Assembly (NCBI GenBank): GCA_027492205.1
Contig: JAOZFN010000011.1
Location: 1 to 64,000 of the forward strand
Source of the DNA: Thermoproteota archaeon
Lineage (GTDB): Archaea; Korarchaeota; Korarchaeia; Korarchaeales; Korarchaeaceae
Direction: 5' to 3'
Length of the DNA: 64,000 nt
The notes beneath the pieces were generated by a model that had not been told where the DNA came from, made no database searches, and saw only the letters and a program-made list of their open reading frames with translations. Shown here piece after piece: positions 1,699-42,603 of the stretch (position 1 is its first letter; every line of letters begins with the position of its first letter). Made by a program: the position numbers and the translations under genes.

Positions 1699-1723
1699 AT
1701 AAGTGGTCACTCCGACGTCAGAG

Positions 1724-3208: not shown

Positions 3209-3308
3209 GTCCGCGAACCCACAATTCTTCTCTAGGGGGCGGCCTGAGTCAGGTTGAGGAAGTTTCCGATCGGAGAACCATTTTTAGCAGGGGCAGACCT
3301 TATCCTTG

Positions 3309-6102: not shown

Positions 6103-6252
6103 TGGGGGCTTCGCCTCTACCAACGGGGTTTTCGACGTCGTGGAAATCTGGTTTTCGCCCAGATAGTCGTGATAAGCCACCAAGAGGACGTGCTGAGGCA
6201 GGCCGACAGGCACCTGGTGCTCAGGGAGGGGGAGGTGGTCAGGTCAGGCTGA
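6103..6252 (+). pseudogene. Remnant of the 3' end of an SbcC/YhaN-like gene (copy 3)
   Basis: Bases 6154-6241 repeat the last 88 coding bases of the first gene and differ from copy 2 (5319-5406) at only a few positions. The frame ends GEVVRSG-stop at 6250-6252. The preceding 51 bases also resemble those before copy 2, so the duplicated block is about 150 bp. The rest of 6065-6432 shows only the promoter of the next gene (GTTTTAATC near 6387-6395). Confidence 0.75.
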
Positions 6253-26280: not shown

Positions 26281-26664
26281 ATGTTTCTCCTGAGGGGGAG
26301 GTTGGCACCAGAGAAGGCCTCCGAAAGGCTCTCCAAGGTTCCGGGGGCGCTGAGGCTCGTGCTGTTCGGCAGCTCGGCCAGGGGGGCGCTGGGCCGGAGA
26401 GCGACCTCGACCTGATGCTGGTCGTGGAGGAAGGCCTCCTACCCAGGGCCCGAGCGGAGGCGTCCGAGGCGGCGGATGTCTACGCGGACACCGGGGTGTC
26501 GGTGACCGTGCTCGTGGTGTCGGGGGGTCTCGGAGGCCCGCTGGGAGGTGATCAGAAGGGCGAGGGAGGAGGGCGTGGTGATACGGACCAGCCGACCGAG
26601 GCGAGGTCCCTCGCCGGAAACTTTCGCCGGAACCAGCCCAGGATCTCAGGGCCCGATTTCCTAA
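26281..26664 (+). pseudogene. Minimal nucleotidyltransferase (MNT), two frameshifts
   Basis: From ATG 26281 the sequence reads APEKASERLSKVPGALRLVL then FGSSARGALG, the MNT GSxxxG motif. The DxD part (PESDLDLMLVVEEGLL) is one base out of frame from about 26395, and the end (SEARWEVIRRAREEGVVIRT) is shifted again at a G run near 26523, stopping at 26662-26664. The promoter (CTTTTAACC, 28 bases upstream) looks good. Either two sequencing errors in G runs or a dead gene. No HEPN partner is present. Confidence 0.7.
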
Positions 26665-26692
26665 TCTTCTCCTGGGGGCCGTCGCGCCAGGC

Positions 26693-28750
26693 TTGAGGGG
26701 CTGGCTCCTGGATGCCCGGGTGGACGGTGAGTCGCTGAGGCTGACCCTCCTGGACGAGTCCGGCGACCCGTCCATGGCGGAGGTGCCGGCTAGGGAGAGG
26801 CTCTACCTCACGCCGAGGTCCGTCGGCCTCGAGAGGCTCGCGGACTCCCTGTCCGAGCTAGAGGGCGTCCTCTCGGTCGGAGTGGAGCGGTGGCTCATGC
26901 CCCCGAGGTACAGGGAGGAGGCCGACGTCCTAGTCGTGGACTGCGGGCCGAGGGAGGCCCGCCTGATACTGAGGAGGGCTCAAGAGCTGGGCCTGGCGGA
27001 GGCGTGGAACAGGTTCCCATCCCTGATCCAGAGGGCGATCCGGGCCAGGGGGGCGACGGCGTGCTCCTGGGTCGAGGTGAGGGGCGGGGAGGTGAGGCCC
27101 CTGGAGGACCCCGGCTCCGTTCCATACGAGGTCCCTGAGCTCAGGGCCGTGAGGGTGTCCTTCCTGGGGTGGGCCGGCGCGCCGAACGCTCCCTCCTGGG
27201 AGACGGTGGATCGGGTTAGGCTCTCCCCTCTCCGGGGGGAGCCGATCGAGCTATCGGTAGAGAGGGCCAGGTTCGGAGAGCTGGCGGACGCCATAAAGTC
27301 GCTCCTCCCACAAGTGGTCGCGTTCGACTCGCCGGGCTGGGCCGAGCTGGCCCTGAGGGTCCCGGGGGTGGCCAGGGGGCTGGAGGCCGCCGGCGCGGTC
27401 GTCCTGCGCAGGCCCCCTCCCCTGGGGATCGACCTCTGGGGGGCCGTGGAGTGGTCCCGCCTCTCCGCCCTCCCGCTGAGCCGGGTGGTCGACGCCACCA
27501 TCGGCCAGGTGCTCACCAGCGCGGAGGCCTTCGAGGCCCTCCGCAGGGGGTACCTGATACCGGAGGTGAGGAGGTTCGTTGAGTCTTGGAAGAGCCCCTC
27601 CCGGCTGCTGGCCGCCGACAGGGGCGGGCTCGTGCTCACCCCCAGGCCCGGGGTCTACTGGGACGTCTACCAGCTCGACTTCAACTCACTCTACCCCTCC
27701 ATAATCGCCAGGGAGAACGTGAGCCCCGAGACGGTGAACGACCCCTCGTGCCCCGGCCCCCGCAGGGAGGTCCCGGAGGTCGGCCACTTGATATGCCTCG
27801 ACAGGAGGGGGCTCGTCTCAGAGGCCGTCGGGAGGCTCGTGGAGAGGAGGGCCAGGCTGAGGGAGCTGGCCCGGCTCGGGGGTGCGGACGCCGAGAGGTA
27901 CGAGTCCGCCCAGGCTGCGGTCAAGTGGGTGCTCGTGGCGTGCTTCGGCTACCTGGGGTACAGGAACGCCAGGTTCGGGAGCATAGAGGCCTACGAGTGC
28001 GTCACCGCCCTGGCGAGGGACGTCGCCAGGAGGGCCGTCAGGGCCGCCGAGGGGGCTGGCTACAGGGTGCTCCACGTGTTGGTTGACTCCCTGTTCGTCC
28101 AGCCCACCCCCGAGGCCGGCAGCGTCGAAGAGCTCGTTCGCATCGTGGAGCGGGAGACCGGATACGGCCTGAAGGTGGAGGCCGAGTACGAGTGGGTCGC
28201 CTTCTTCTCGGGCGTCACGACGGGCGAGGGGGTGCCCTCCAGGTACCTGGGGAGGCTCACGTCTGGAGGGACTGAGTGGGGCGCGTTCAAGGTGAAGGGG
28301 CTGGAGTTCGCCAGGAGGGACGCGCCGCAGGTGGTCCGGAAGGCGGCGATGGAGGCCCTGTCCGAGCTGGAGCGGGCCGAGTCCCCCGGGGAACTCGAGG
28401 GGGCGTCGATCAGGGCCGTCGAAGTCTTCGGGGCCTGGGCCCGGAGGCTGGCTCGGGGCGAGGTGGACCTCGCCGACCTCGTCGTGGAGAGGAGGCTGTC
28501 CAGAGATCCAAGATGGTATGAGAGGTCCCCGTCCCACGTCGTGGCGGCTCGGGGGCTCAGACCCGGAAAGGGGTCGGCGGGGGCCGTCAGGTACGTGGAG
28601 GCCAAGACCCCCTACCCGGTCGACCTGGGCCCCGGGGGCTACTCGGTGGAGAGGTACCTCGCGTGGCTCGACAGGGCGGCCAGGCCGTTCAGGGCCCTGG
28701 CGAGGCTAACTCGCTCAGAGCGGCCAGGTCGCCGGTTGATTATTAATTGA
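26693..28750 (+). CDS. Family B DNA polymerase, PolB2-like with degenerate motifs
   Basis: A 685-residue polymerase, shorter than replicative PolB (about 780-900). Motif A is intact: YQLDFNSLYPSIIARENVSP near residue 330. Motif B reads AVKWVLVACFGYLGYRNARF. Motif C reads VLHVLVDSLFVQ, so YGDTDS has lost its first Asp and keeps the second. No DIET-type exonuclease motif is visible in the N-terminal half (VSFLGW and VVAFDSPGW stand in similar places), so proofreading is probably absent. This pattern fits archaeal PolB2/Dpo2. In Sulfolobales that enzyme is damage-inducible. The start overlaps the region after the broken MNT gene. Confidence 0.85.
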   Translation: MRGWLLDARVDGESLRLTLLDESGDPSMAEVPARERLYLTPRSVGLERLADSLSELEGVLSVGVERWLMPPRYREEADVLVVDCGPREARLILRRAQELGLAEAWNRFPSLIQRAIRARGATACSWVEVRGGEVRPLEDPGSVPYEVPELRAVRVSFLGWAGAPNAPSWETVDRVRLSPLRGEPIELSVERARFGELADAIKSLLPQVVAFDSPGWAELALRVPGVARGLEAAGAVVLRRPPPLGIDLWGAVEWSRLSALPLSRVVDATIGQVLTSAEAFEALRRGYLIPEVRRFVESWKSPSRLLAADRGGLVLTPRPGVYWDVYQLDFNSLYPSIIARENVSPETVNDPSCPGPRREVPEVGHLICLDRRGLVSEAVGRLVERRARLRELARLGGADAERYESAQAAVKWVLVACFGYLGYRNARFGSIEAYECVTALARDVARRAVRAAEGAGYRVLHVLVDSLFVQPTPEAGSVEELVRIVERETGYGLKVEAEYEWVAFFSGVTTGEGVPSRYLGRLTSGGTEWGAFKVKGLEFARRDAPQVVRKAAMEALSELERAESPGELEGASIRAVEVFGAWARRLARGEVDLADLVVERRLSRDPRWYERSPSHVVAARGLRPGKGSAGAVRYVEAKTPYPVDLGPGGYSVERYLAWLDRAARPFRALARLTRSERPGRRLIIN

Positions 28751-28822
28751 TATATCGAAATTGGTAATGATAATGATAATCTTTAATTAACCGGGTGCCC
28801 GGAATCGCGGGGGCGAGACCGC

Positions 28823-29035
28823 GTGGGGGTCACCACGATAAGCGTCAGGCCGGAGACCAAAAGGCTGCTCGCCTCGCTGAAGGGTGACAAGTCCTGGGAC
28901 GAGTTTCTGCTGGAGCTTGCGGAGGAGCTGCGCAGGAGGAGGCTTGAGGGGGCCCTCAAGAAGCTTAGGCAGATCCCGATGGACGCTGAGTACGAGGAGG
29001 TGAGGCTGAGATTAGGCCTCAGAGGGTCCTCCTAG
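28823..29035 (+). CDS. Antitoxin of a VapBC-like pair
   Basis: A 70-residue protein: TTISVRPETKRLLASLKGDK, SWDEFLLELAEELRRRRLEG and a helical tail. ISV-x-PETKRLL...SWDEFL is the archaeal VapB (DUF217-like) pattern. The region just upstream (28740-28800) is very AT-rich (repeated GATAAT and TTTAATTAA) and likely holds the promoter. The PIN toxin gene overlaps its end. Confidence 0.8.
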   Translation: MGVTTISVRPETKRLLASLKGDKSWDEFLLELAEELRRRRLEGALKKLRQIPMDAEYEEVRLRLGLRGSS

Positions 29036-29382
29036 ACACGGACTTCCTGATCGAAGTGGACAGGGGGAGGGAGGAGCTCCCCGACGCACTGTGCCAGATC
29101 TCCATCGTGACGCTCTACGAGTTCGTCAGGGGGAAGGCTGATCCCACCCTGGCGAAGAGGCTGCTCGAGGAGATATTCGAGGTGGTTCCGCTGGACAACA
29201 GGGTGGTGTCCACGGCGACGGAGATCTGGAGAGACCTCAGGCGGTCGGGCGCCTCTCTGGACGACAGAGACCTACTCATCGGGGCCACGGCCATAGCGAA
29301 CGGAGTCCCCCTCCTCACGAGGAACGTCCGCCACTACGACAGGCTCAGAGAGTACGGGCTCAAGTTCTGGCGGGTGGAGTAA
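29011..29382 (+). CDS. VapC-type PIN toxin with no canonical start codon
   Basis: PIN domain with all acids: RVLLDTDFLIEVDRGREELP (first Asp), VTLYEFVRGKAD (Glu), GASLDDRDLLIGATAIANGV (Asp) and PLLTRNVRHYDRL. The first conserved Asp (29035) lies upstream of the first normal start, GTG 29056, so that start would cut the active site. In frame before it only ATT (29011), GTC (29026) or CTC are available, all within the antitoxin gene. I give ATT as the most start-like. Either the start is non-standard or a base is wrong. Confidence 0.75.
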   Translation: MRPQRVLLDTDFLIEVDRGREELPDALCQISIVTLYEFVRGKADPTLAKRLLEEIFEVVPLDNRVVSTATEIWRDLRRSGASLDDRDLLIGATAIANGVPLLTRNVRHYDRLREYGLKFWRVE

Positions 29383-29647
29383 CCCGAGACCGCTTGAGTT
29401 TGGCTCGGTGGGCAGGCGACTGGGCTGGTCGCCCTCCCTGCCCGGGGGCCCCTGACGGGTTGTCGGCATGGGCGCGGCACGGGAGGCGAGCCTACTCCAC
29501 CACTCGGCCCGAGACGCGCGGAGAGCGGACTGTCCCAGGGGACACCCTCCAGCGGGATGGGAGGCACGATCCTCAGACCCGTTCCGCCCCGTTTCACGCC
29601 GATCCTCTATATCCTCGCCGCCCCGCGAAGCTCTGGGGCGGACAGCC

Positions 29648-32038
29648 GTGAGGCGTCCAAAGCTCGAGCTCTGGCCCAGGGTCCACCCGCTCGACATCGT
29701 TCCCCTCGGACTGGTGGCGCTCCACGCCGCCCTTCTGCTCGTCAACAGGAACAAGCTTCCCTTCTCCTACGACACCCCCTATCACCTGCTGATCGGGAAG
29801 ATGTACTCCGACTTCGGGAGGGTGGTCCTCTGGGACTACTACGAGTACGCCCCCGTGGGCAGGCCCCAGCTCTACCCGCCCCTCCTCCACGTCGTCATCT
29901 GGTGGACCCACTCGCTCACCGGGCTGGACTTCGTCTCTGTCGGCAGGGTCATAGCCCTCGTCCAGTATCCGGCGTCGCTCCTCCTCTCCTGGGTCGCGGT
30001 CAGGAAGATGTTCGGCCCCGAGGTTGGCGCAGCGTATGCTGGCCTTCTGTCGGCCGACCCGAGGTTCTGGACCTGGCAGCTCACAGTCGCCCCGACGGCC
30101 ATGATCATGGCCCTCCTCATGCCCCTCATCTACCTCTTCTGGCGGAAGAAAACGGTCCCGGCGGTCCTACTGATGACGGCCTTCCTTTACTCTCACCTGG
30201 GCCTCCCGTACGTCGTCCTCCTCTCGCTGATCCTCGGGGGGCTGCTGTCCCTGCCGCTGGACTCCGGCTACGTCAGGGAGGCCCTGAAGGTCGGTGGGGT
30301 ATCGCTCCTCCTCTTCACGCCCTGGGCCCTCCACGTCCTGTCCAACAGCGAGGCGATCCAGGCCGGGAAGATGTCGACCGGCGGGAAGGTCCTGCTGGGG
30401 TTCTTGACGGTTGACCTCTTCGTGCTCCTCCTCCTGCCCCTGGGAATATACGCTGCCTACAGGGCCGGAGCGGGGGGCAGGATCCTCCTGGGGATCGGCG
30501 CCGCCTTCCTGGCGATCCTCCCCACTTACGGTATGAGGTACTTCCTCCACTCTCCGCCCGTCAACTGCGCCATCGCCGCCGTTGGATTCGGATGGCTGGT
30601 GGACATGATCCGCCACCGCCTGGACCGGAGGGCCCTCTTGGGAGTGGTGGCCGCGTTCGCCCTGACGTCCTCGGCGTTCGCCCCGACCGTCGCCGGACGG
30701 CGCGCGCTGGGGCCCATGTCCGGGGGGCCAACGCCCGTCGTCAGGGAGCTGACAGGCGGCATGGAGGAGGTGATACCACCTAACTGGAGGCTGTACAGCG
30801 TGACCAACCCCTGCGTGCGGGAGCTGGCCAGGTGGATAGATGAGAACCTGCCCGAGGGGGAGATAGTCCACGTGGGCATCGGCCCCCTGGCCGACTGCAT
30901 AACCCTGCTCTCCGGCAGGCTCACCGACGGGGGGATGTACAGGGAGGTCAGGACGGGGGAGATGCTCCGGGCCGTCGCAGAGGGCGGGAAGAGCGGCATC
31001 TTCGTCTCCCTGCGCAGGGACCTCCCGAGAGAGGCGAGGGGCAGGGACGTGACCGTCTTAGCGGAGATCGGTCCGTTCGTCGTGTTCTACGCGGCCCCAC
31101 CGGTTGGGGCCGTGAGCCTGGAGTCCCTGGGGGTTGGGCTGCTGGTGAGGCTTCGTCCGGGCTCAGATCCGGCGGAGTGGGTGAGCGCCCTCGAGGCGAT
31201 CAGGCCGGGCAGGCTGTCCATATCTCCGGCTCCCACCATCGGCGGAGTCCACTCGGCCGTAGAGCTCGCGAGGGAGGTCTCCGGGTTCGCCCGGGAGATC
31301 GAGGTGGTCTTGGTGGCCAGGGACCCGACCGTCGCACAGCTGGCCGAGCTGGTCTCCAGAGAGCTGGCGGGGGTCGTGAGGGCCGTGAGGATATCTGGGA
31401 CGGTCCCGACGCTGAGGTCCATCGACATCGAGTCCGCCGCCGGCGCGGTGAGGTCCGAGGGCGCGGAGTTCGGACTCGGGCTGATAGGCAGGGCCAGCCC
31501 GGGCGACCTCAAAGCGGCCCTCCAGGCGGCCGACTACGTCGTCATCCACGTCCCCCCGACCCCGGAGGTCGTTGAACCCCTCTCATTGGCCCGGGAGGCC
31601 GGCGGCGGGAGGATAGTCGTGCAGGTGGACCTGACCCTCGCCCCGCCCGACGCGCGCTCAAGGGCTTTGCAGGCGTTCCTGAGGGAACTCTCGGCCAAGA
31701 TGCCTGGGTGCACGGCGCTAATCGAGGTGGACGACCCCACGGCCCTGAAGGACGTCGACTGGGCCCTTGTCGGTGAGCCTCGCCAGCCCCGGGCGCTTCC
31801 CCCGAGCGCCCCGGCCGACGGGGGCGATCGGGTTATTACTTTCCCACCCCGGCGCTTGCCCGTGCTCATCCGAGGCGTGGAGGTACTTCACGTGGCCATG
31901 AGACTGGTGGAGCCCTTCGAGACGAGCCTCGGGGTCGAGAGCGTGCGGCACACCATCCTGATCAGGGTGGAGGAGAGGGGCGGCGAGGTGGGATGGGGCG
32001 AGGCGGGCCAGGCCCCGTTCAGAACGCCTCAACCCTGA
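29648..32038 (+). CDS. Multi-membrane GT-C-like protein with soluble C-terminal part; 3' end replaced
   Basis: The N-terminal ~340 residues have about 9-10 membrane segments. After the first comes an acidic loop KLPFSYDTPYHLLIGKMYSD, as in GT-C-type glycosyltransferases (ArnT/PMT/OST-like); this assignment is tentative. A soluble region follows (CVRELARWIDENLPEGEIVH), then two phosphoglycerate/dehydrogenase-like strands. From 31825 the frame runs into a perfect copy of the start of the MenC-like gene (LPVLIRGVEVLHVAMRLVEP) and stops at 32038, so the natural C-terminus has been lost or replaced. GTG 29648 is chosen; the region before it is low complexity. Confidence 0.7.
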   Translation: MRRPKLELWPRVHPLDIVPLGLVALHAALLLVNRNKLPFSYDTPYHLLIGKMYSDFGRVVLWDYYEYAPVGRPQLYPPLLHVVIWWTHSLTGLDFVSVGRVIALVQYPASLLLSWVAVRKMFGPEVGAAYAGLLSADPRFWTWQLTVAPTAMIMALLMPLIYLFWRKKTVPAVLLMTAFLYSHLGLPYVVLLSLILGGLLSLPLDSGYVREALKVGGVSLLLFTPWALHVLSNSEAIQAGKMSTGGKVLLGFLTVDLFVLLLLPLGIYAAYRAGAGGRILLGIGAAFLAILPTYGMRYFLHSPPVNCAIAAVGFGWLVDMIRHRLDRRALLGVVAAFALTSSAFAPTVAGRRALGPMSGGPTPVVRELTGGMEEVIPPNWRLYSVTNPCVRELARWIDENLPEGEIVHVGIGPLADCITLLSGRLTDGGMYREVRTGEMLRAVAEGGKSGIFVSLRRDLPREARGRDVTVLAEIGPFVVFYAAPPVGAVSLESLGVGLLVRLRPGSDPAEWVSALEAIRPGRLSISPAPTIGGVHSAVELAREVSGFAREIEVVLVARDPTVAQLAELVSRELAGVVRAVRISGTVPTLRSIDIESAAGAVRSEGAEFGLGLIGRASPGDLKAALQAADYVVIHVPPTPEVVEPLSLAREAGGGRIVVQVDLTLAPPDARSRALQAFLRELSAKMPGCTALIEVDDPTALKDVDWALVGEPRQPRALPPSAPADGGDRVITFPPRRLPVLIRGVEVLHVAMRLVEPFETSLGVESVRHTILIRVEERGGEVGWGEAGQAPFRTPQP
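31825..32005 (+). repeat. 181-bp perfect direct repeat, left copy
   Basis: All 181 bases equal those at 35309-35489. The unit holds a TATA-like GTTATTACT, the TTG start and the first ~50 codons of the MenC-like gene. Here it is fused to the end of the GT-C-like frame and breaks off at the GAGGCG end, after which the sequence is unrelated. Confidence 0.95.
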
Positions 32039-32694
32039 CCCCCCTCGAATCGGCGTAGCCGGCGACGCCTCGCGGGATCAAGGCCCCCGGAGGGGGAAAT
32101 ATGATCTTCACCCCCCTTCAGGGACCAGACTTCGTCCGGCAGGTCGTCCACGTCCCACCTGCTCGGCCTTACCTTCGCGTCAACGCGAAGGTCTCCCCGT
32201 CCACCCGGCGACCCCCCGAGGCCCCCCGTCCCCCTCCAGGGGGGGTTCCATGGGCCCTTCCTCAGGGAGACATTGCTCAATTCCCTCGTATCCCCCCTTT
32301 CAAGCCAACTTCGTCGGATCCCGGTTAGAAAAGTTGCATTTGCGTGCAGTCCCGGGGGGCGGGTAGGCTGACGCTTCTGATGAGAAGTCTCTTCCGGCGA
32401 TCATGGAGCCAAGGTCGCTCTGCTCAGCCTAAATTTCACGGCGGACGCCGCCGAGGTTCCTGGAGATCGCTAGAGACTCCGCAATCGGACGATCTCCAGA
32501 GCCGCCTCTCCAGGCCCACGGCCGGAGGGGCCTCCCTGTGGGACATGCTGGGATCGCCGGTCGATTATCTGAGTGGGAGTTCGACGGGCCGACCCCCCGG
32601 CGGCTGAGCCCACGGGGAGGCCCGAGAATGCAGGGATGCCGACGTGCCAACCCCAACTTTATTAGGGAATCTCTGGACGCACCCCCCCAGCTGG
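32039..32694. other. Gene-free GC-rich stretch with one strong hairpin
   Basis: About 650 bases without a credible gene on either strand. It holds a perfect hairpin at 32171-32192, several C/G runs and, at its end, the promoter of the next gene (ACTTTATTAGG, 32655-32665). No tRNA, SRP or RNase P RNA pattern was recognised. Confidence 0.5.
32171..32192. repeat. Perfect 10-bp inverted repeat
   Basis: ACCTTCGCGT-CA-ACGCGAAGGT: two perfect 10-base arms around two bases. No T run follows, so it is not a simple terminator. It may be a DNA-binding site or a hairpin of a small RNA. Confidence 0.6.
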
Positions 32695-34824
32695 GTGAGT
32701 CCTCGGTTGTCTCTTAACAAACCTATCCTGGCCTTTTTCCTGGTTATCGGCCTCCTCCTGTCTCTATTCCTCACGTCGTCCAGTGCCCAACCCAGAGAAC
32801 TCGAGTGGAATCACGTCTGGGGCGGATCCGAACTCGACGTAGCCAGGGCCGTCACTATGGCCCCGGACGGCACGGTCCTCATTGCTGGCGGGACTGAAAG
32901 CTTCGGCCCGCCCGGAGGTGGGGATGGGGACGCCTTCGTCGCCACCTTCAGCTGGGCCACCGGCCACTACACCGGAGGTGGAACCTGGGGGGGTCCGGGC
33001 TACGAGTATGCTTGGGGTGTAGCGACCCCCTGGAACACGTTCAGCAACTTCTACCTGTCGGGCAACACGAACAGCTTCGGCTCCACATATGACGCCTTCC
33101 TCGCGAGATTCGGCTCGGATGGGGCTCACTTCTGGAGCAAGACCTGGGACGGCGGCGACTACGACGGCTCTTGGGACGTCGCCGTCGACCCCAACGGGTA
33201 CATCTACATAGTCGGAGAGACCCACGGCCTCGGGGAGGGATTCGCCGACGCGTTCCTGGCCAAGTTCAGCGAGAGCGGAGCTCATATATGGAGCAGGACC
33301 TGGGGAGGGGTCAGCTACGATTCCGCCAACGCAGTCACCACCGACGCGAGCGGGAACGTCTACGTGGTCGGGTCCACGGGGAGCTTCAACCCGGAGGGGA
33401 AACTCGATGTCTTCGTCCTCAAGTTCAGCTCATCCGGGGGCCTGCTCTGGTCGCTGGTGTGGGGGCTCGAGATGGACGACACCGCCTGGGACGTGGAGTG
33501 GTATGACGGCGTAGTCTACGTGTCCGGGTTCATGAAAAGGCTCCACGGCTATCCCTCGGGGTCCGTCACCGATGACTCCTTTGTGATAGCCCTAGACGAC
33601 TCGAATGGGAACGTCCTCTGGGCCAGGGGGCTGACCGGGGCGGATAGAGGCGTGGGCTCCTCAAGGAGCTTCGCGGTATCTGTCGACGAAGGAGGGGTGG
33701 CCGTCGTGACCCAAGAGTCTAGTGGCCTCAGTCACGTCTACGTGTTCGACAGGCCCTCGGGCCGCCTCCTCTGGGCCAGGAGCATAATACCCGGGCTGGG
33801 GACCAACATATACGCGAGAGCGTACGCCGCCACCTTCAAGTACGGGAAGATCGTGGTCGCGGGCACGGCAAACACGGAATCACAGTATATTTGGCCAGCC
33901 TATCTGTCGCTCTCCTGGCTCAGCGGTGACGTCCAGAGGAGCGTGGGCGCCGTGCACGACGTCACCTCCCAGGTGACGGTCCAGGACGTGACGTCTCAGG
34001 TCACCCTCGGAGATCCCCCCAACCCCGTGGACAGCGGGGGAGAGGAGGCAGGGGGCGCCTTCATCATGTCCATCGACTCCTGGACGGCCGAGGAAGCGCT
34101 GGCCAACGTGGACGCCTGGGCCGACTGGACCGGGACCGATGCCTACAAGCAGGTCGCCGTGGTCGTCGGGGCCCCGGTGAACAGGCCCGACAAGGTCGAG
34201 GGACCCTACAAGCAGTGCAGGACCACGGCGGTGGCTGGCGCCATGTCGATAGCCGGGGCCCTGGGCGCCAGGGATAGCTTCTTGGACGACGAGGCGGTGG
34301 AGTACGACCCTGCGGCCGACGAGGTGAACTGGATCGGGGACTTCGTCGACCACTACGGGAGGGTCGCGGCCGTGGGCGGGCCGATAGTCCACATGATCGT
34401 GGACAAGTACATGGACCAGTCAGTGTTCCCGTTCTCCTCGGTGACTGAGGGCGGGCACGAGCTGTACCAGATTACGGTGAACGAGAACGGCATAGCAAGG
34501 GTGTACCTGAACCGCACAGACAAGTACATGTACATAGAGTACGAGGACGGGAGCCTGGACAAGGTCGGCAAGGTGGGGGAGGCGGACTTCGCGGTCGTGG
34601 AGATGTTCCACGACTCGGACGCGGAAAAGTGGGTTCTCACAGGCTACGGGATAACGAAGTACGGGTCCCTGGCGTCGGGCAGGTGGCTCGGATCGATAGT
34701 CGGGTTTACCTACTTCTACACCTTTGACGCGAAGGCCGTCGTCCTCCTCTGGGAGGACAGCAACGGAGACGGGATGGTCCAGTCCGCGGAGGTCAACGTC
34801 CTGGCCCGGGGCTACGGACCCTGA
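32695..34824 (+). CDS. Secreted beta-propeller protein (SBBP-like repeats)
   Basis: A ~709-residue protein with a signal peptide (LAFFLVIGLLLSLFLTSSSA) and then about six beta-propeller blades. Each has the pattern W-x-x-x-WGG...A-x-x-V-x-x-D-x-x-G-x-x-Y-x-x-G, e.g. HIWSRTWGGVSYDSANAVTT and GNVYVVGST, as in bacterial SBBP repeats. A separate C-terminal domain (TCRT-less, with CRTTAVAGAMSIAGALGARD) ends the protein. GTG 32695 follows TATA box ACTTTATTAG; an upstream GTG (32644) would lie before it. It is the only gene inside the 3.3-kb segment between the 181-bp repeats. Confidence 0.75.
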   Translation: MSPRLSLNKPILAFFLVIGLLLSLFLTSSSAQPRELEWNHVWGGSELDVARAVTMAPDGTVLIAGGTESFGPPGGGDGDAFVATFSWATGHYTGGGTWGGPGYEYAWGVATPWNTFSNFYLSGNTNSFGSTYDAFLARFGSDGAHFWSKTWDGGDYDGSWDVAVDPNGYIYIVGETHGLGEGFADAFLAKFSESGAHIWSRTWGGVSYDSANAVTTDASGNVYVVGSTGSFNPEGKLDVFVLKFSSSGGLLWSLVWGLEMDDTAWDVEWYDGVVYVSGFMKRLHGYPSGSVTDDSFVIALDDSNGNVLWARGLTGADRGVGSSRSFAVSVDEGGVAVVTQESSGLSHVYVFDRPSGRLLWARSIIPGLGTNIYARAYAATFKYGKIVVAGTANTESQYIWPAYLSLSWLSGDVQRSVGAVHDVTSQVTVQDVTSQVTLGDPPNPVDSGGEEAGGAFIMSIDSWTAEEALANVDAWADWTGTDAYKQVAVVVGAPVNRPDKVEGPYKQCRTTAVAGAMSIAGALGARDSFLDDEAVEYDPAADEVNWIGDFVDHYGRVAAVGGPIVHMIVDKYMDQSVFPFSSVTEGGHELYQITVNENGIARVYLNRTDKYMYIEYEDGSLDKVGKVGEADFAVVEMFHDSDAEKWVLTGYGITKYGSLASGRWLGSIVGFTYFYTFDAKAVVLLWEDSNGDGMVQSAEVNVLARGYGP

Positions 34825-35308
34825 GCCGGGACGGCCCCTCACTTTTTCGGTGGCCTGCGCGGGCGCGAGACTCGCCGCCCAGCCTCAGGCGACGATCCAG
34901 AACGGGCCGCCGGGCGCGGGTGACCCATGCTGCCCTCGTCGACCGCGGGGGGCGTCTCTAGACCCCTCGTGACCCCTGCCTCGGGGGCTGCAACCACGCG
35001 ACTGGTCGGTGCGGAGGGTACACGGCCGGGGGATTCGCGCCCACATTCGGGGATGCGGGCGCAGGATGGGGAAGCGTGCGCGCTTGTTCTGGGCCGGCCC
35101 ACCCTGCCGGCCGCGGGCGCGGGGTGTGCGGGAGCGCCCGGGACTGCCGGGTCGGGTAGGCTCTCCGCATCTCGTCCCCGGTGTGGGCGTGTTAACGGTT
35201 GTCTGCGGGGTTCACAGGGGCGGTCTCCTAGTTCGCTCTGAACAACGTCAGAAGAGCCCTGTCGCGTCGACCCTGCGGCCCCCCGCACACCCGAGCACAG
35301 GCCCCGGT
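34825..35308. other. Gene-free, very GC-rich stretch
   Basis: Nearly 500 bases with open frames on both strands but no recognisable protein, RNA or repeat. The codon pattern is unlike that of the neighbours. It forms the right end of the segment enclosed by the 181-bp repeats. Confidence 0.5.
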
Positions 35309-35489
35309 CGATCGGGTTATTACTTTCCCACCCCGGCGCTTGCCCGTGCTCATCCGAGGCGTGGAGGTACTTCACGTGGCCATGAGACTGGTGGAGCCCT
35401 TCGAGACGAGCCTCGGGGTCGAGAGCGTGCGGCACACCATCCTGATCAGGGTGGAGGAGAGGGGCGGCGAGGTGGGATGGGGCGAGGCG
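35309..35489 (+). repeat. 181-bp perfect direct repeat, right copy
   Basis: Identical to 31825-32005. This copy is in its natural place: promoter, TTG start at 35340 and first ~50 codons of the full-length MenC-like gene. The two copies enclose 3,303 bases (32006-35308). Confidence 0.95.
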
Positions 35490-36461
35490 CCGGTGTCCGT
35501 CGGTCCGTGGTACAGCCCCGAGACTGTGTCCACGGCGTGGCACGTATTGAGGGACTTCCTGATCCCCCCCGTCGTTGGCTCGGAGGTCGATGGGCCGGAG
35601 GACTTCCTCGAGAGGATCTCTAGGGTGAGGGGGCACAGGATGGCGAGGGCCGGGCTAGAGTTCGCTCTCTGGGATCTGAAGGCCAAGCTCGAGGGTAAGT
35701 CCCTGAGCGATGTGATAGGGGGTACCAAGGAGAGGGTTCAGGTGGGCGTCAGCGTGGGCATCCAGCCAGGGGTAGAGGAGACCCTAAGGGTGGTGGAATC
35801 CTACCTCGATAAGGGCTACAGGCGGGTGAAGCTTAAGATAAGGCCTGGGTGGGATAGGCAGCCCGCTCAGGCCGTCAGGGAGGCGCATCCCGAACTGAAG
35901 CTAATGGTGGATGCAAACGGCGCCTACACGCTCGCCGGCATCGAGAGGCTGAGGGCCCTGGACGACCTGGGCCTCATGATGATCGAGCAGCCCCTGAGAC
36001 CCAGGAACCTACTGGCTCACGCCGGGCTGGCAAGGCACCTCGAGACCCCCCTCTGCCTTGACGAGAGCGTGGAGAGCGTCGACGACGCGGTTGAGGCCCT
36101 CCAGCTGGACTCGGCCCTTGTACTGAACCTCAAGCCCGCCAGGGTTGGGGGGCTGCTGGAGTCGCTGAGGATACACGACCTGTGGGCCGCCTCCGCCGGG
36201 AGACCACTCTGGATTGGGGGTCTGCTCGAGACCGGGATAGGCAGGGCGTTCTTGGTCGCCGCCGCCTCCCTCCCGGGCGTGACGATGCCCTCGGACATAT
36301 CGGCCAGCGACAGGTACTACGAGGAGGACCTGGTGGAGCCGCCATGGACCCTCAACGAGGACGGGACGCTGAGCGTGCCCAGAGGGCCGGGCATAGGGGT
36401 GGAAGTCCTGGATGACAGGGTGGAGAAGTACACCGTGAGGAGGGATGAGATACGGGTGTGA
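35340..36461 (+). CDS. Enolase-superfamily enzyme, MenC/N-acylamino acid racemase-like
   Basis: A 373-residue muconate-lactonizing-enzyme group protein. It has the KxK catalytic lysines in YRRVKLKIRPGWDRQP, metal ligands in LMVDANGAYTL, MIEQPL and CLDESVESVDD, and the second-face lysine in VLNLKPARVGG. This set is that of o-succinylbenzoate synthase and N-succinylamino acid racemase; the two activities cannot be told apart by sequence. No other menaquinone genes are nearby, so racemase is the likelier role. TATA-like GTTATTACT lies about 24 bases above the TTG; a GTG at 35346 is possible. The next gene overlaps by four bases. Confidence 0.85.
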   Translation: MPVLIRGVEVLHVAMRLVEPFETSLGVESVRHTILIRVEERGGEVGWGEAPVSVGPWYSPETVSTAWHVLRDFLIPPVVGSEVDGPEDFLERISRVRGHRMARAGLEFALWDLKAKLEGKSLSDVIGGTKERVQVGVSVGIQPGVEETLRVVESYLDKGYRRVKLKIRPGWDRQPAQAVREAHPELKLMVDANGAYTLAGIERLRALDDLGLMMIEQPLRPRNLLAHAGLARHLETPLCLDESVESVDDAVEALQLDSALVLNLKPARVGGLLESLRIHDLWAASAGRPLWIGGLLETGIGRAFLVAAASLPGVTMPSDISASDRYYEEDLVEPPWTLNEDGTLSVPRGPGIGVEVLDDRVEKYTVRRDEIRV

Positions 36462-37417
36462 TCCCGACCCGCAGGCTCTGCCTGGTCCTGGGGGACGAAC
36501 TGAAGCTGTACTCCTTCCCGGAGCCGCACCCGTTCAGGTCGGACAGGTACGAGGCCTTCCTCAGTCGCCTCAGGGGGGAGGGCCTGGACACCCACCCGGG
36601 GGTGACGGTCTGCGGGCCGAGGATGGCGTCGAGGGACGAGGTGGAACTCTTCCACGATCCCGACTACGTGGAGTTCGTGGCCCGGATGTCCGAGGGAGGG
36701 GTCGGCTACCTGGACTACGGCGATACGCCAGCGTTTCCGGGCGTGTACGAGGCCTCGCTGTGGGTCGTTGGAGCCACGCTCAGGGCCCTTGAGGCCGTGC
36801 TGAGTGGGGAGAGCCTGAGGGGCTTCAACCCCATTGGCGGGCTCCACCACGCCCGCAGGGATCGAGCGGCCGGCTTCTGCGTATTCAACGACGTGGGTGT
36901 CGCCTTGGAGTTTGCCCTCCGGGCTGGCGTGGAGAGGATCCTCTACGTCGACATGGACGCCCACCACGGAGACGGGGTGTTCTACGGGTTCTACGCCGAC
37001 CCGAAGGTCTGGATCTTCGACGTTCACGAGGACGGGAGGTACCTATACCCTGGCACAGGGTTCAGGCACGAGGTCGGGGAGGGCGAGGCCAGGGGGACGA
37101 AGCTAAACGTCCCGCTTCCGCCCGGAGCCGGGGACGACGAACTCGCGGAGGCAGCTGGGAAGTTGGCCGAGTTCGCCGACAGGGCGGATCCCGAGTTCGT
37201 GGTTCTTCAGGCGGGCGCGGACGGGCTGGCGGTGGATCCGCTGACGCATCTGTCCTACACAACGTCGGGTTACCTAAAGTTCGTCGATGAGGTCGTTAAG
37301 GTCGCCGAAAAGCACGCGAGAGGTCGAATCCTCGCGGTTGGGGGTGGGGGATATAGAAGAGAGGCCCTAGCGTCAGCCTGGGTGGGGCTCCTAAGGAGGC
37401 TCTTGGGGCGAACCTGA
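36458..37417 (+). CDS. Histone deacetylase/AcuC family deacetylase-like protein
   Basis: A 319-residue arginase-deacetylase-fold protein. Conserved are GGLHHARRDRAAGFCVFND (the HH pair), RILYVDMDAHHGDGV (zinc Asp/His), and VVLQAGADGL (zinc Asp), plus a Gly-rich LAVGGGGYRREALAS with the catalytic Tyr. Archaeal members may deacetylate proteins (e.g. Alba), polyamines or other acetyl-amides. Translation is coupled to the enolase-superfamily gene by a GTGA overlap, hinting that the two handle N-acyl compounds together. Confidence 0.85.
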   Translation: MIPTRRLCLVLGDELKLYSFPEPHPFRSDRYEAFLSRLRGEGLDTHPGVTVCGPRMASRDEVELFHDPDYVEFVARMSEGGVGYLDYGDTPAFPGVYEASLWVVGATLRALEAVLSGESLRGFNPIGGLHHARRDRAAGFCVFNDVGVALEFALRAGVERILYVDMDAHHGDGVFYGFYADPKVWIFDVHEDGRYLYPGTGFRHEVGEGEARGTKLNVPLPPGAGDDELAEAAGKLAEFADRADPEFVVLQAGADGLAVDPLTHLSYTTSGYLKFVDEVVKVAEKHARGRILAVGGGGYRREALASAWVGLLRRLLGRT

Positions 37418-37499
37418 TCGGAGATCTATCCCGGGAGGAGGGGTCACTCAAGGCGCGGGTTTGATAGAGCCTCCAACCAACCCGGGCGCGGCACAAGGA

Positions 37500-37534
37500 T
37501 TTTTTTAGTTTCCGCCGGGGGCCCCCGGCGGAAA
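37500..37534 (+). promoter_or_regulatory. TATA box and 26-base perfect palindrome before the gene at 37535
   Basis: A T-rich TATA box (TTTTTTTAG, about 37500-37508) is followed directly by two perfect 13-base arms (37509-37521 and 37522-37534) that touch the ATG. The core is CCGGGGGCCCCCGG. It occupies exactly the bases where transcription should begin, so it is either an operator or, in the mRNA, a very strong hairpin masking the start. Confidence 0.65.
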
Positions 37535-37930
37535 ATGCGTCCGCTCATGGCGCTCGCCGGGCTCATCCTATTGGTGTCCTCCCTCTTCCTGCTCTCTTTA
37601 AGCAAACAAACAACCCTCCCGGCCCTTCAAACGAGTCGGAACGAGTTGGTCGAGAAGTTCCTCGCGTCGAGCTCCAAGGTTCCGCTCGCCCTGGGCGCCC
37701 TGGGTGCGGCCGCATTCTTCGCGGGGGCCGCCCTCCCCTCGCCCGAGGAGCCAGGCGCCCGTAGGGGACTCGACCCCGAGTTCATATCTTTCATGGAGGA
37801 GATGAGGGCCCTGAGGTCACGGCTGGAGGGGGGCCTCATATCCCAGGAGGAGTTCAACAGGCTCAGGGCCGAGGTTTATCAGAGGCACAGGGCGCTGTTT
37901 CAGAGGTACTTGGGCAAGAGGTCGAGGTAG
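37535..37930 (+). CDS. Small membrane protein with two membrane segments and SHOCT-like tail
   Basis: A 131-residue protein: first membrane segment MALAGLILLVSSLFLLSL, an outer loop, second segment VPLALGALGAAAFFAGAAL, then a cytoplasmic helical tail. The tail (MRALRSRLEGGLISQEEFNR) resembles the SHOCT motif, a short oligomerisation element with the G-x-I-x-x-E-E-F pattern. Function unknown. It sits just below the 26-base palindrome. Confidence 0.6.
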   Translation: MRPLMALAGLILLVSSLFLLSLSKQTTLPALQTSRNELVEKFLASSSKVPLALGALGAAAFFAGAALPSPEEPGARRGLDPEFISFMEEMRALRSRLEGGLISQEEFNRLRAEVYQRHRALFQRYLGKRSR

Positions 37931-37991
37931 GCCCAGGGAAGTGGGGGACTTGGAATACCTTTTTGGCGTGGCGGGCGGTGGATGACCACGA

Positions 37992-38678
37992 ATGTCGTCT
38001 GACTCCACAGGGCCTGACCTAAGCCTGACGCTCGCGGTGCTCGACAAGAGGATCGACGACCTCGAATCGAGGCTGGCCTCCTTGGAAAATACGATATCCA
38101 GGCTGAGGGACGAAGAGGCCTCGATATCAGATAGGGTGGACCGCCTCGTCAGGAGGGTTCTCGAGGGCACGGTGATCCTGGCCGCCATGGTGATCGCGTC
38201 GATGATGCTGCTCCCGTCCGGGAGGGTGGCCCCGTGGGTGCAGCGTGCCCTGACCATGGCCGCCCTGGGAGGGGCGGTTGTCCTGTGGGCCATCCTGAGG
38301 TTGGGCTCCTCCAGGCTCGAGCGGCGGAGAGTGGAACTCGATAAGGAGATATCCAAGAGGGCCCTCCAGCTGGAGGACTTGGAGGCGGAGGCCCGGGCGC
38401 TCGGCAGGGTCAGGACGGCCCTGGCGATAGCCCACGGGGGAGATGTGGTCAGGGCCTACGAGGAGCTCTCCAACGTCGTCCTGAGGATGCCCTCGAGCAG
38501 CGAGGCCCTGGAGGCTATTCTGATCGGCCTCAAGGCCCTCGCAGAGGGGGCCCCGAGGGATTACGCCGTGAGGCTATCCGCCGGCCTCGAGAGGAGGGCC
38601 TGGGAGCAGCCCCAAGACTCCTGGGAGAGGGCCGCCCTGCTGGCCATCGCCGACGCGCTGACCGCCAAGGCGAGGTGA
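37992..38678 (+). CDS. Coiled-coil membrane protein, unknown function
   Basis: A 228-residue protein: N-terminal coiled coil (LDKRIDDLESRLASLENTIS), two membrane segments (VILAAMVIASMMLLP and ALTMAALGGAVVLWAIL), a second coiled coil (RRVELDKEISKRALQLEDLE) and a helical C-terminal domain perhaps of TPR-like kind (AIAHGGDVVRAYEELSNVVL). I do not recognise a family. Confidence 0.6.
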   Translation: MSSDSTGPDLSLTLAVLDKRIDDLESRLASLENTISRLRDEEASISDRVDRLVRRVLEGTVILAAMVIASMMLLPSGRVAPWVQRALTMAALGGAVVLWAILRLGSSRLERRRVELDKEISKRALQLEDLEAEARALGRVRTALAIAHGGDVVRAYEELSNVVLRMPSSSEALEAILIGLKALAEGAPRDYAVRLSAGLERRAWEQPQDSWERAALLAIADALTAKAR

Positions 38679-38695
38679 CGCCCCGCGGGGCTCTA

Positions 38696-39358
38696 TCACC
38701 CGCTCAACTCGCCCGATAAGACTCTCTTCAGGAGGGCTAGGGCCCCCGCGACGGCCCCCAACTCCGCGAGCACGTGATCTCCAGACGTGCCTATGATGAT
38801 GGCGTCTCCTGGCTTCGCCTCCAATTCCCTGGCTATCTCCCTGGCCCTCCTCTGGAGCTCCCCGGGGCACCTGACGCCGCCAGGAAAGTAGACGGCATCC
38901 CCCTTCGGGATTAGAACTGTAGCCCCGTCCGCACCCGCCCTGAAGGCGGCGTCTCGAATTCCCAGCCCAGTGGTCACACCTCGGGCGCCCCCCTTGACCA
39001 GCACCGCGGCGTCCCTCGAACTTACCGTGAGGCCACCCGCCCTCACCCTCAGGGGCCCCCTCAGGTGCCTCCTGAGGGACTTGAGCAGCACCTCCCCCCC
39101 GGTTGTCAGGCCCCAGCCGGCCCTCGAACTCTCGGCAAATCCACCGGCCTCGAGCCTCTTGAGCAAACTCCTGACGCTGCCCTCCCCCAGCCCTAGTTCG
39201 GAGGCCAGGGCTCTCCTCCCGATTCTCCTCTTCTCCCCCAGCTTGATCAGCGCGAGCAGGACGTGTTCTAGTCTAAACCTGGCCTCTGGACCGGGTTTCG
39301 GCTCAATCAATGCTTCCAGAGTGGAGAAGGGCTCTGTCAGGGCTGAGGTCCCACCCAT
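38696..39358 (-). CDS. HTH regulator with DUF4443 domain
   Basis: A 220-residue archaeal protein. An N-terminal winged helix (ALASELGLGEGSVRSLLKRL then EAGGFAESS) is followed by a DUF4443 ligand-like domain (GATVLIPKGDAVYFPGG, REIARELEAKPGDAIIIGTS). It resembles CggR/DeoR-like sensors in layout. It is divergent from the DUF4430-ECF operon with a palindrome between, so it probably controls that operon and itself. Confidence 0.75.
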   Translation of the reverse strand: MGGTSALTEPFSTLEALIEPKPGPEARFRLEHVLLALIKLGEKRRIGRRALASELGLGEGSVRSLLKRLEAGGFAESSRAGWGLTTGGEVLLKSLRRHLRGPLRVRAGGLTVSSRDAAVLVKGGARGVTTGLGIRDAAFRAGADGATVLIPKGDAVYFPGGVRCPGELQRRAREIARELEAKPGDAIIIGTSGDHVLAELGAVAGALALLKRVLSGELSG

Positions 39359-39385
39359 TGTCTCGCGGTTGGCTCTCTGAAGAAA

Positions 39386-39417
39386 CTTAATATGAATATG
39401 GATGGATTATCCATCCA
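39386..39417. promoter_or_regulatory. Palindromic operator between the DUF4443 regulator and DUF4430 operon
   Basis: TGGATGGAT-T-ATCCATCCA (39399-39417) is a perfect 9-base-arm inverted repeat. It lies between a TATA-like AATATGAATATG (39389-39400) and ATG 39427, i.e. at the presumed transcription start, and 41 bases from the start of the divergent regulator. Confidence 0.65.
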
Positions 39418-39426
39418 GGATAACCC

Positions 39427-39894
39427 ATGGAGAGGTGGATCGCCGTCTCAGTCCTCCTCATGATCTGGGCGGTTTCGGCCTCCATGCTGGCGATCTACTA
39501 CCGATCAGAGATAACCACCCTGAACCAACGGCTGAGCGCCACGGTCGGAGGGGAAAGCGAGTACGTGACCGTCAACCTCGGGATAGGGGTCCAGGGAGGC
39601 GACGTCACGTGGTACAACGGGACCCGTGTGAAGAGGGGGTCGACGCTCCTCGACGTTACCTCGCAGGTGGCCGACGTGAACTACACCGTCTACCCTGGGA
39701 TGGGGGCGTTCGTTCAGTCGATAAACGGGGTCGCCAACAGCGACCCGTACTACTGGATGTGGTGGACCTGGACCGACTGGGGGGGCTGGCAGGAGGGCCC
39801 GGTCGCCGCAGACAGGTACGTCGTGGCGGACGGCGAGACGCTCTTCTGGTACTTCGAGGACGCCTCACAGAGCCCGCTTCCGACCCCACCCTGA
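39427..39894 (+). CDS. DUF4430 family membrane-anchored protein
   Basis: A 155-residue protein with an N-terminal anchor (WIAVSVLLMIWAVSASMLA) and a DUF4430 (transcobalamin-C-like beta-grasp) domain: VNLGIGVQGGDVTWYNGTRV, GSTLLDVTSQVADVNYTVYP, FVQSINGVANSDPYYWMWWT, and an end VADGETLFWYFED. In animals the related fold binds cobalamin; in prokaryotes DUF4430 genes often neighbour ECF or BtuCD transporters. It is probably an extracellular substrate-binding part for the transporter encoded next. Confidence 0.8.
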   Translation: MERWIAVSVLLMIWAVSASMLAIYYRSEITTLNQRLSATVGGESEYVTVNLGIGVQGGDVTWYNGTRVKRGSTLLDVTSQVADVNYTVYPGMGAFVQSINGVANSDPYYWMWWTWTDWGGWQEGPVAADRYVVADGETLFWYFEDASQSPLPTPP

Positions 39895-39909
39895 GGCGGT
39901 GAGGGCCGG

Positions 39910-40461
39910 GTGAGGGTCGGGACGCCGAGCCGGAGGGCGGCCGTGATAGGGCTGCTCTCCGCCCTCGCCATCGCCACCAACTACGCCATGATCGGCATCC
40001 CGAACGTAAAGCTCATGGACTCGATCGTCTTCCTTGCGGGCATGGGCCTCGGGTTCGCGGACGGGGCGGCGGTGGCGACCCTCACCTGGCTCGTCTACGG
40101 CTTTCTCAACCCGTACGGGTTCGTCCCGACGATCTGGCTCGCGACGACGCTGGGCGAGTGGCTGTTCGCGCTCGCGGGCAGCCTATCGAGGGCCCTGCCC
40201 GGCGGGAGGAGGGTCCCGGCCCTGGCAGTCCTCGGGTTCGCCACCACCCTCGCCTACGACCTGATCACCAACGCCGCCTTCGCCACAACATTCGGCCTCC
40301 CGGTCTGGACGGCCCTCGTAGCCGGGGTCCCCTTCGCACTCCTGCACGAGCTGACCAACGCCGCGGCCTTTTCCATCTTGGTTCCCAGGGCGGAGGCAGC
40401 GGTCGGGGCGCTACTCAAACTCATGGTCGAGGGTAGGCCCGTCAAGGCTGGCCGATTATGA
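39910..40461 (+). CDS. ECF transporter S component-like membrane protein
   Basis: A 183-residue protein with six membrane segments: AAVIGLLSALAIATNYAMIG, DSIVFLAGMGLGFADGAAVA, LTWLVYGFLNPYG and later LLHELTNAAAFSILVPRAEA. The size and the A-x-x-x-A motif near the first helix fit S components. The DUF4430 gene 15 bases upstream suggests cobalamin or a related ligand. No ECF A/T energising genes are present in the window. GTG start. Confidence 0.7.
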   Translation: MRVGTPSRRAAVIGLLSALAIATNYAMIGIPNVKLMDSIVFLAGMGLGFADGAAVATLTWLVYGFLNPYGFVPTIWLATTLGEWLFALAGSLSRALPGGRRVPALAVLGFATTLAYDLITNAAFATTFGLPVWTALVAGVPFALLHELTNAAAFSILVPRAEAAVGALLKLMVEGRPVKAGRL

Positions 40462-40777
40462 ACCTCGGGGGCTCGATCCACTCGTTCCCGCACTTCGGAC
40501 ATCTGCTTGGTTTTCTGGGCTTCTTAAGGCTCTTGAAGACGTAGCCGCACTTCCTGCAGTATGGGGGCTCCATGAGGAGCATCAGGGAGCCGCCGTACGT
40601 CCTGTTCAGCGTCTTCGCCACGTGTTCCAAGTGGGCGTAGACAGACCTAACCTCTCCGGGCGGCAGGCCGAGCTCCCGGGCGATCTCCGCAGCAGACATG
40701 GGGTACTCCGCGGAGGAGAGGAGCCTCACGATCCGCTGCCGTATCGTCCCCTCCTCGGGGTCCGTCACTCCGTTCAC
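40442..40777 (-). CDS. HTH and zinc-ribbon transcription regulator (COG3357-like)
   Basis: A ~111-residue protein: winged-helix part (GTIRQRIVRLLSSAEYPMSA then AEIARELGLPPGEV) and a zinc ribbon with four cysteines (CRKCGYVF...CPKCGNEW), the typical archaeal COG3357 layout. The GTG at 40777 overlaps the stop of the preceding gene (GTGA); a second GTG at 40768 is possible. Its 3' end overlaps the convergent ECF gene by about 20 bases. Confidence 0.8.
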   Translation of the reverse strand: MNGVTDPEEGTIRQRIVRLLSSAEYPMSAAEIARELGLPPGEVRSVYAHLEHVAKTLNRTYGGSLMLLMEPPYCRKCGYVFKSLKKPRKPSRCPKCGNEWIEPPRFIIGQP

Positions 40778-41775
40778 CCCCAGGAGAAGCTCACGAGGGA
40801 CATGACTGAGAGAGGCCCTCCGGGCTGGTAGTCGATCACCTCGACGATTCCCGTTATGGGGACGTCGGGGCTCACCCACACGGCTCCGGTCTGTCGGGCG
40901 AACTTCGCGCAGAGGAACCTCCCGGCCGGCACCTCCCTGTACTCGGCGGTGGCCCTCCCCAAGACCCTCGGGATCTCCTGCTCAGAGAGGTTGGGGGGCT
41001 CCCAGAGCCGGCAGGACAGGTTTGAGGAGAAGCTCTCCACCCCCGCGCCGCTGATGGAGGCGTAGGTACACACCGTCCCATTGGAGAGGTAGTAGGCGAC
41101 GCTGGTGGCGTTGGACTGGGGAGCGTACACGTTCACGGCGCTCTGGACTATGACGGTCGCCGGGACGTCTCTCAGGCTGCCGGAGGAGACCCTGTAGAGC
41201 ATGTAGCCGGTGACGTTGTCCCCGTAAGGTGAGATTATCGTGGTCGAGTAGTTCGCGTACTGCCCAGGGGATAGGCCCCTGGCCTCCAGGCTCGTCATGA
41301 CCGCGGTAATGGGTGAACCCGGAAAGCCGGAGACCGCGTACAGCTTGGCGGCGAGGAGGGTCTCGTTCCTGGTCTGACCGGCTATCACCACCGCGGTCCG
41401 GTTGCCCCAGTATCCCAGGTAGACTAGGATGGCCCCGGGCACCTGCCTGAGCCAGTCCTCGTCGCTGTCGTTGAGTACCATGGCAGAGATCTCCCCAATA
41501 CCCTCGTAGGCGTCGGGCCCACCCAGGATCACGGGGAACCGGTCCCCCACCTCACCCGCACTATCGGGGGAGAGCAACTCGACGTCAACGCCGACCCTCT
41601 GGAGGCTCTCCACTATCACCTGGGCCGCCTGGGCGTCGTAGGAGTTGGCGATCACGGCAACTCCCCCGATCGAACCCTCGGCGGCCAGGACCGAGGATAC
41701 GCCGGGGATCGGCGCAGCGAGCACGAGAGTCAGAATCAGCGCGCAGAGAGAGGACGTCTTGAGCCTCTTCACCAC
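40774..41775 (-). CDS. Secreted protein of unknown function with N-glycosylation sites
   Basis: A ~333-residue protein with a signal peptide (LCALILTLVLAAPIPGVSSV LA-type cleavage site) and mature part GGVAVIANSYDAQAAQVIVE, an alpha/beta start that resembles the cell-wall-binding/S-layer outer domain repeats which read VILGGPDAYEGIGEI. Several N-x-S/T sites suggest surface glycosylation. GTG 41775 is used because a TTAAATC TATA box is about 25 bases upstream; earlier starts would fall close to it. The HTH-zinc-ribbon gene is translationally coupled. Confidence 0.65.
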   Translation of the reverse strand: MVKRLKTSSLCALILTLVLAAPIPGVSSVLAAEGSIGGVAVIANSYDAQAAQVIVESLQRVGVDVELLSPDSAGEVGDRFPVILGGPDAYEGIGEISAMVLNDSDEDWLRQVPGAILVYLGYWGNRTAVVIAGQTRNETLLAAKLYAVSGFPGSPITAVMTSLEARGLSPGQYANYSTTIISPYGDNVTGYMLYRVSSGSLRDVPATVIVQSAVNVYAPQSNATSVAYYLSNGTVCTYASISGAGVESFSSNLSCRLWEPPNLSEQEIPRVLGRATAEYREVPAGRFLCAKFARQTGAVWVSPDVPITGIVEVIDYQPGGPLSVMSLVSFSWG

Positions 41776-41835
41776 CGGCGACCCCGACCCCAAGGAGATT
41801 TAAGGTTCCCTCGTCCCCAGCCCGCGGGCGGCCGA

Positions 41836-42603
41836 TCAGCCAGAGACGAGTCGGACGTCTCCAGCGTCCTGCGGGTACCACCTGAGGCGTGCCCCGTACA
41901 GGGGATCGGGCCCGAGGGCCTCCATGACCCCGGTCACCGCCTCTTTGACGGTGTTCCCATCGGCGAGGAGCCTGACCAGCATGACCACGGCCCTGTCCGT
42001 GTGAGTTGCAGTGACGTCCTCATCCCACCCTATGACCACGGACGCGCCCCTCCTCACCAAGGCCTCCGCGGTCACGTTGGTCACGAGCCCCTTGCATCCG
42101 GCGATGATTATCACGGCCCCGTGAAAGTTCCCCTCCATCTCCGATGAGATGAACTCAGGCGGTATCGCGAAGTACCTGTCCTCTGACTTGAGGAGCACCA
42201 GGGCGCCGACCTTCTTGGAGAGCTGCAGGTCCACGTACCTTTGGGGGGCGAAGGGCTCGCCGGTCCCCAGCGCCACGTGAACGGGCCTACCGTCTTTGTA
42301 GAAGGCCGCCGTGTGGACTCGGAGTATTAGCAGCCGGTAACTAAGCATGGGGAGCGTGCGATACAGCTCTACGGAGACATTCCAGTGCGTGAAGACGTCC
42401 AGGGTCATGTTTACCCTGCTCAGCGCCTCTCTCAGGTCCTCAGCCAGGCGAGGGTTTGGAAACTCTATGGCCAGCGAATCAAGGAGCGCGGCATCTCCCG
42501 CGACCCGGGTGGGGGGCTGCCTGGGCGACCTCAGCAATATTGCCGGAGTCGCAAGGGCCACCACGACCACGGCCAACATGAGCGGCAGTCGTCTGAGGCT
42601 CAT
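41836..42603 (-). CDS. Secreted protein with a caspase-like (CHAT/C25-type) fold, tentative
   Basis: A ~255-residue protein with a signal/anchor (LPLMLAVVVVALATPAILL). Its C-terminal half reads EGNFHGAVIIIAGCKGLVTN, then AEALVRRGASVVIGWDEDVT and LLADGNTVKEAVTGVMEALG. This order (His, then a strand ending in Cys, then G-A-x-x-V-I-G) is that of CHAT and other caspase-like peptidases, with candidate dyad His in NFHGA and Cys in AGCKG. The His-Cys spacing is shorter than usual, so catalytic activity is uncertain. ATG 42603 fits a TATA-like CTTTTTTGAA about 29 bases upstream. Confidence 0.5.
   Translation of the reverse strand: MSLRRLPLMLAVVVVALATPAILLRSPRQPPTRVAGDAALLDSLAIEFPNPRLAEDLREALSRVNMTLDVFTHWNVSVELYRTLPMLSYRLLILRVHTAAFYKDGRPVHVALGTGEPFAPQRYVDLQLSKKVGALVLLKSEDRYFAIPPEFISSEMEGNFHGAVIIIAGCKGLVTNVTAEALVRRGASVVIGWDEDVTATHTDRAVVMLVRLLADGNTVKEAVTGVMEALGPDPLYGARLRWYPQDAGDVRLVSG

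Follow-up and report, generated by a model that had tools for sequence, protein, structure and literature searches.

The closest described counterparts of the locus reported here are transposed genes of Arabidopsis with direct repeats of genic target-site sequence on both flanks, for which circle formation and reinsertion have been proposed (PMC2869330). Similar cases in Drosophila are cited in the same source (PMC2869330). We analyzed a 64,000-nucleotide stretch of DNA from a Thermoproteota archaeon (the window), in which a self-comparison of the sequence indicated that positions 31825-32005 and 35309-35489 are identical across all 181 bp, at a spacing of 3484 bp. An earlier note on this DNA had described this pair as perfect direct repeats; the identity was verified, and a search of the whole 1.94-Mb genome indicated that the 181-bp segment is present in these two copies only. 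For comparison, we used the sister genome G001 (MAG Thermoproteota archaeon Aegir_M25_B147), which is the only genome that shares this gene neighbourhood. The features of the locus are as follows.

29636-31824, forward strand: GT-C-like membrane glycosyltransferase gene, the left neighbour, with ~94% identity to a 720-aa protein of G001
31825-32005, forward strand: left repeat copy, collinear with G001 on its left side and now a 5' fragment of MenC
32006-32694, forward strand: left non-coding part of the insert, lacking coding periodicity, Pfam matches and DNA relatives
32009-32017, forward strand: left copy of the directly repeated 9-bp word CAGGCCCCG, just inside the insert end
32695-34824, forward strand: gene for a secreted SBBP beta-propeller protein of 709 aa (start GTG at 32695), with a signal peptide, propeller repeats and a C-terminal domain
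34825-35308, no strand assigned: right non-coding part of the insert, with a GC content of up to 75%
35298-35306, forward strand: right copy of the directly repeated 9-bp word CAGGCCCCG, just inside the insert end
35309-35489, forward strand: right repeat copy, the start of the intact MenC-like gene
35340-36461, forward strand: intact MenC-like (o-succinylbenzoate synthase type) gene of the enolase superfamily, with 93% identity to G001

The length of the match is far beyond chance, and, among exact direct repeats whose copies lie within 20 kb of each other, the 181-bp pair is the longest in the part of the genome that was checked (576 kb); it extends to 184 bp if one mismatch, at 31823/35307, is allowed. 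The repeat is host genic sequence, being the 5' part of the MenC-like gene, and not a transposon. In agreement with the earlier description of its content, it holds the putative MenC promoter, which it likely spans, and the first ~50 codons of the gene, with the right copy opening a complete MenC gene and with the first 15 bases of the repeat, CGATCGGGTTATTAC, conserved in G001. The MenC-like protein was also confirmed to match TIGR01928 above the cut-off.

The order in G001 is the GT-C gene, one copy of the 181-bp segment and the MenC-like gene, with the insert absent. Positions 26609-32005 of the window aligned with G001 at 96.5% and positions 35306-42492 at 87.9%, and the 184 bp that the two alignments have in common correspond to the single repeat copy. 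The G001 contig (GenBank JAOZFH010000013.1) is continuous across this empty site, and the repeat segment is present once in the G001 genome. When the MenC neighbourhood was inspected in other genera of the family, the GT-C gene was absent from the flanks examined, and no further empty site was found. Because one genome shares the neighbourhood, a gain here and a loss in G001 can be told apart only by the identity of the copies. At 26609-26612, upstream of the PolB gene, ~540 bp of extra DNA was observed in G001.

The repeat differs from its counterpart in G001 at 23 of the 181 sites (12.7%), with no gaps, whereas the two copies in the window show no difference from each other. Because of this contrast, the duplication is estimated to be younger than ~10% of the time since the split of the two species, unless gene conversion has acted, which places an age bound on the earlier interpretation of the perfect identity as the mark of a very recent event. 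Divergence from G001 reaches ~14% around the junction, compared with a level of 3-5%. An origin of this divergence in imported or mutagenised DNA was considered and rejected, because non-coding DNA here diverges by ~18% between the two species, as determined for a decayed gene fragment common to both, and relaxed constraint is enough to account for it.

The GT-C-like protein had no Pfam match, the GT-C label coming from the earlier reading of the sequence. It had been claimed that the left copy replaces the end of this gene, which was not borne out: in the G001 ortholog, the gene's own TGA closes the frame before the single repeat copy is reached, and the MenC start lies 49 bp further. In the window, the TGA stop has been lost by small changes near ~31800, leaving an open frame that runs through the left copy to 32038. 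Judging from this comparison, the repeat did not replace the gene end; the GT-C stop was lost through a small change of its own. The stop loss (31785-31825) puts GT-C in frame with the MenC start; before the insertion, the two would have formed a fused frame, unless the change is of later date or reflects a sequencing error.

The insert between the copies is 3303 bp in length and consists of one gene and two non-coding stretches, the total gain being 3484 bp when the second 181-bp copy is included. The encoded protein contains ~53-aa SBBP repeats (Pfam SBBP) and was related to CylK chains in a phmmer search (E=5e-25). A signal peptide is predicted at its N-terminus, and its C-terminal domain ends in a calcium-loop-like DSNGDG motif, both as read from the sequence. 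The layout of a propeller followed by this C-terminal domain, at lengths of 706-765 aa, recurs in distantly related korarchaeal proteins from other genomes of the phylum (L025, L029, L030 and L137), and the C-terminal domain is also present elsewhere in the same genome; in G001, the C-terminal domain was found on its own, with no full-length relative of the propeller gene. Near ~32656, at the end of the left non-coding part and ahead of the propeller gene, there is a candidate archaeal TATA box, TTTATTAG, which is possibly that of the propeller gene. The flanks, 32006-32694 and 34825-35308, exhibited no coding periodicity, and their main open frames had no meaningful Pfam match. The SBBP match and the character of the flanks thus support the earlier view that the segment encloses a secreted beta-propeller gene and two gene-free stretches.

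The insert is native-looking in composition and does not look foreign: its GC content is 65.1%, versus 64.3% for the contig as a whole, and its tetranucleotide distance falls at the 89th percentile of that contig. A foreign origin was thus not supported by composition. With respect to a donor, DNA searches gave no match elsewhere in the same genome or in 30 relatives, and protein searches of the phylum, GTDB contigs, viral contigs, phages and plasmids gave distant SBBP relatives only; the donor may belong to an unsampled lineage. The word CAGGCCCCG is present just inside both ends of the insert, and a 9-bp match within the outer 20 bases occurs in 0.1% of random 3303-bp segments; this pair may have been left by the joining step, for example, if a circle was closed or opened there.

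The best reading of the locus and, in our assessment, probably the correct one is that this lineage recently underwent an insertion-duplication. The earlier note had offered a duplication-insertion, an excisable circle or an assembly join; insertion is supported by the empty site in G001, and the segment has no feature indicative of a dedicated excisable element. Starting from a G001-like order of the GT-C gene, one 181-bp copy and the MenC gene, the locus would have gained 3303 bp of non-homologous DNA with its one propeller gene, and the 181 bp would have been copied so that they flank it on both sides. This could have occurred if a circle already bearing a copy of the 181 bp integrated by one crossover, or if replication or break repair switched template to other DNA and re-entered the site 181 bp behind the point of exit. 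We infer that the route, circle integration or template switching, was driven by homology or by a template switch. Both routes would leave the GT-C gene whole and the MenC gene with an intact promoter and gene body, and the preservation of both genes may be a reason why the insertion was tolerated. Because of its direct-repeat structure, the segment should be removable by recombination between the copies, which is predicted to restore the empty site, that is, the G001 arrangement, and to release a 3484-bp circle. If the junctions are real, a reversible state in the population is also predicted.

An assembly artefact, which we regard as rather unlikely, would consist of two contigs with a 181-bp overlap that were left unmerged and an unrelated 3303-bp contig or separate circle placed between them, and the true join would then equal the G001 arrangement. 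De Bruijn graphs do not distinguish an integrated copy from a free circle that coexists with an empty site. Furthermore, this assembly contains neighbouring contigs whose ends overlap exactly by 23-480 bp without having been merged. The overlaps that were checked are unique in the genome, and 181 bp falls in this range; positions 1-212 of the window, for instance, are the last 212 bases of contig C8 and are found nowhere else, the overlap between C8 and contig C17 being 212 bp. However, there are no Ns at the junctions or in the whole window, the 576 kb checked yielded no second case of a perfect unmerged duplicate around unrelated DNA, the insert comprises a whole gene with non-coding margins, unlike a random contig of a gene-dense genome, and its composition matches that of the genome. 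The sole other perfect long unmerged duplicate in these 576 kb is a 163-bp ABC-ATPase stretch at the start of contig C10. It lies in two tandem ABC-ATPase genes (L148, 1-279 and 858-1136), whose 280-bp starts are 96% identical, with 163 bp exact, and this shared start is a probable result of gene conversion. If the junctions prove to be an assembly error, the placement of the propeller gene beside MenC in this genome is to be dropped.

It is very unlikely that the insert is ancestral to both species and was lost from G001 by repeat recombination, gene conversion having kept the copies identical here. Such a loss would leave one clean copy, as G001 shows, and gene conversion can keep nearby direct repeats identical; against this, conversion would be needed across all 181 bp, with zero residual difference, despite the 12.7% divergence from G001. 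Even less probable is a small mobile element that uses the MenC 5' end as a site-specific attachment site, with an integrase supplied elsewhere. Integrative elements inserting into gene ends restore the target gene via a direct repeat, and the direct repeat here likewise restores its target gene. However, the segment is devoid of an integrase, a transposase and a tRNA, outside this locus the 181-bp segment has no copy in the same genome or in the sister species, no further insert bounded by it was found, and the junction and repeat patterns were unmatched in viral contigs. Pfam searches of the propeller and the other frames, together with a tRNA search, detected no recombinase, integrase, transposase or tRNA in the segment, and searches with Rfam and for tRNAs revealed no meaningful candidate for an integration target or an RNA. 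Inverted repeats were not found at the insert ends, nor was a replication gene on the 3303 bp. An integrative element with an att site was rejected because the segment has no recombinase and the propeller gene is its only gene, and a transposon or insertion sequence was rejected because of the 181-bp direct repeat and the lack of a transposase and terminal inverted repeats.

Other repeats were also observed in this genome. An SMC/Rad50-like gene (106-1509) is represented by three copies of its 3' end, at 1403-1494, 5317-5406 and 6154-6243, with 92-94% identity, and these repeats bound an ATPase cassette (1703-5071) and small genes (5520-5930), the latter a putative DUF433-type antitoxin and a PIN-like partner, as named from their sequences. 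Copies two and three are alike in their flanking DNA as well (84%), and this region at the 5' end of the window had no match in G001. It is doubtful, and in our view improbable, that single-gene gain is recurrent here, in the sense that accessory segments enter beside host genes and become bounded by directly repeated pieces of those genes; in this view, the SMC-fragment repeats would be an older case. In contig C17, positions 184016-184253 (L134, 16-253) are a decayed 5' fragment of an antiporter-like gene (180477-181733) and lie beyond a pyrophosphatase-like gene. This antiporter-fragment repeat (180507-180746 and 184016-184253) was rejected as an independent example, because G001 has it too and it resembles a tandem copy that has decayed. 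A short-repeat array at 44122-45073, with a spacing of 45-48 bp and multiples thereof, encodes Asp-rich repeats on the minus strand, which are possibly calcium-binding.

If the junctions are real, the locus captures a gene gain by a probable korarchaeote at a very early stage, with its flanking copies not yet diverged, and the way in which such archaea acquire single genes without mobile-element enzymes could be read from one locus. The insertion would be of wider interest if the SMC-fragment repeats prove to reflect the same process. Among known systems, template-switching duplication, whether break-induced or microhomology-mediated, is similar in that it too yields inserted DNA next to a segment of the target that was copied a second time. 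Campbell-type integration by a single crossover is similar in that one copy lies on each side, the two being identical if the circle carries the resident sequence, but it differs in that the 3303 bp here have no replication gene and no free circle was observed. The likeness is closest to the Arabidopsis cases, in which a gene is bounded by repeats of ordinary host genic sequence that match the target site in a sister species (PMC2869330). For this class of target-site direct repeats, the sister species is the point of reference, and the orthologous site in G001 has a single copy and no insert. Unlike the Arabidopsis cases, the host is an archaeon and the 181-bp repeat is still perfect, and the donor site is known in some of those cases (PMC2869330), whereas none was found here. 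Taken together, these comparisons show that the locus closely resembles the transposed genes of Arabidopsis (PMC2869330).
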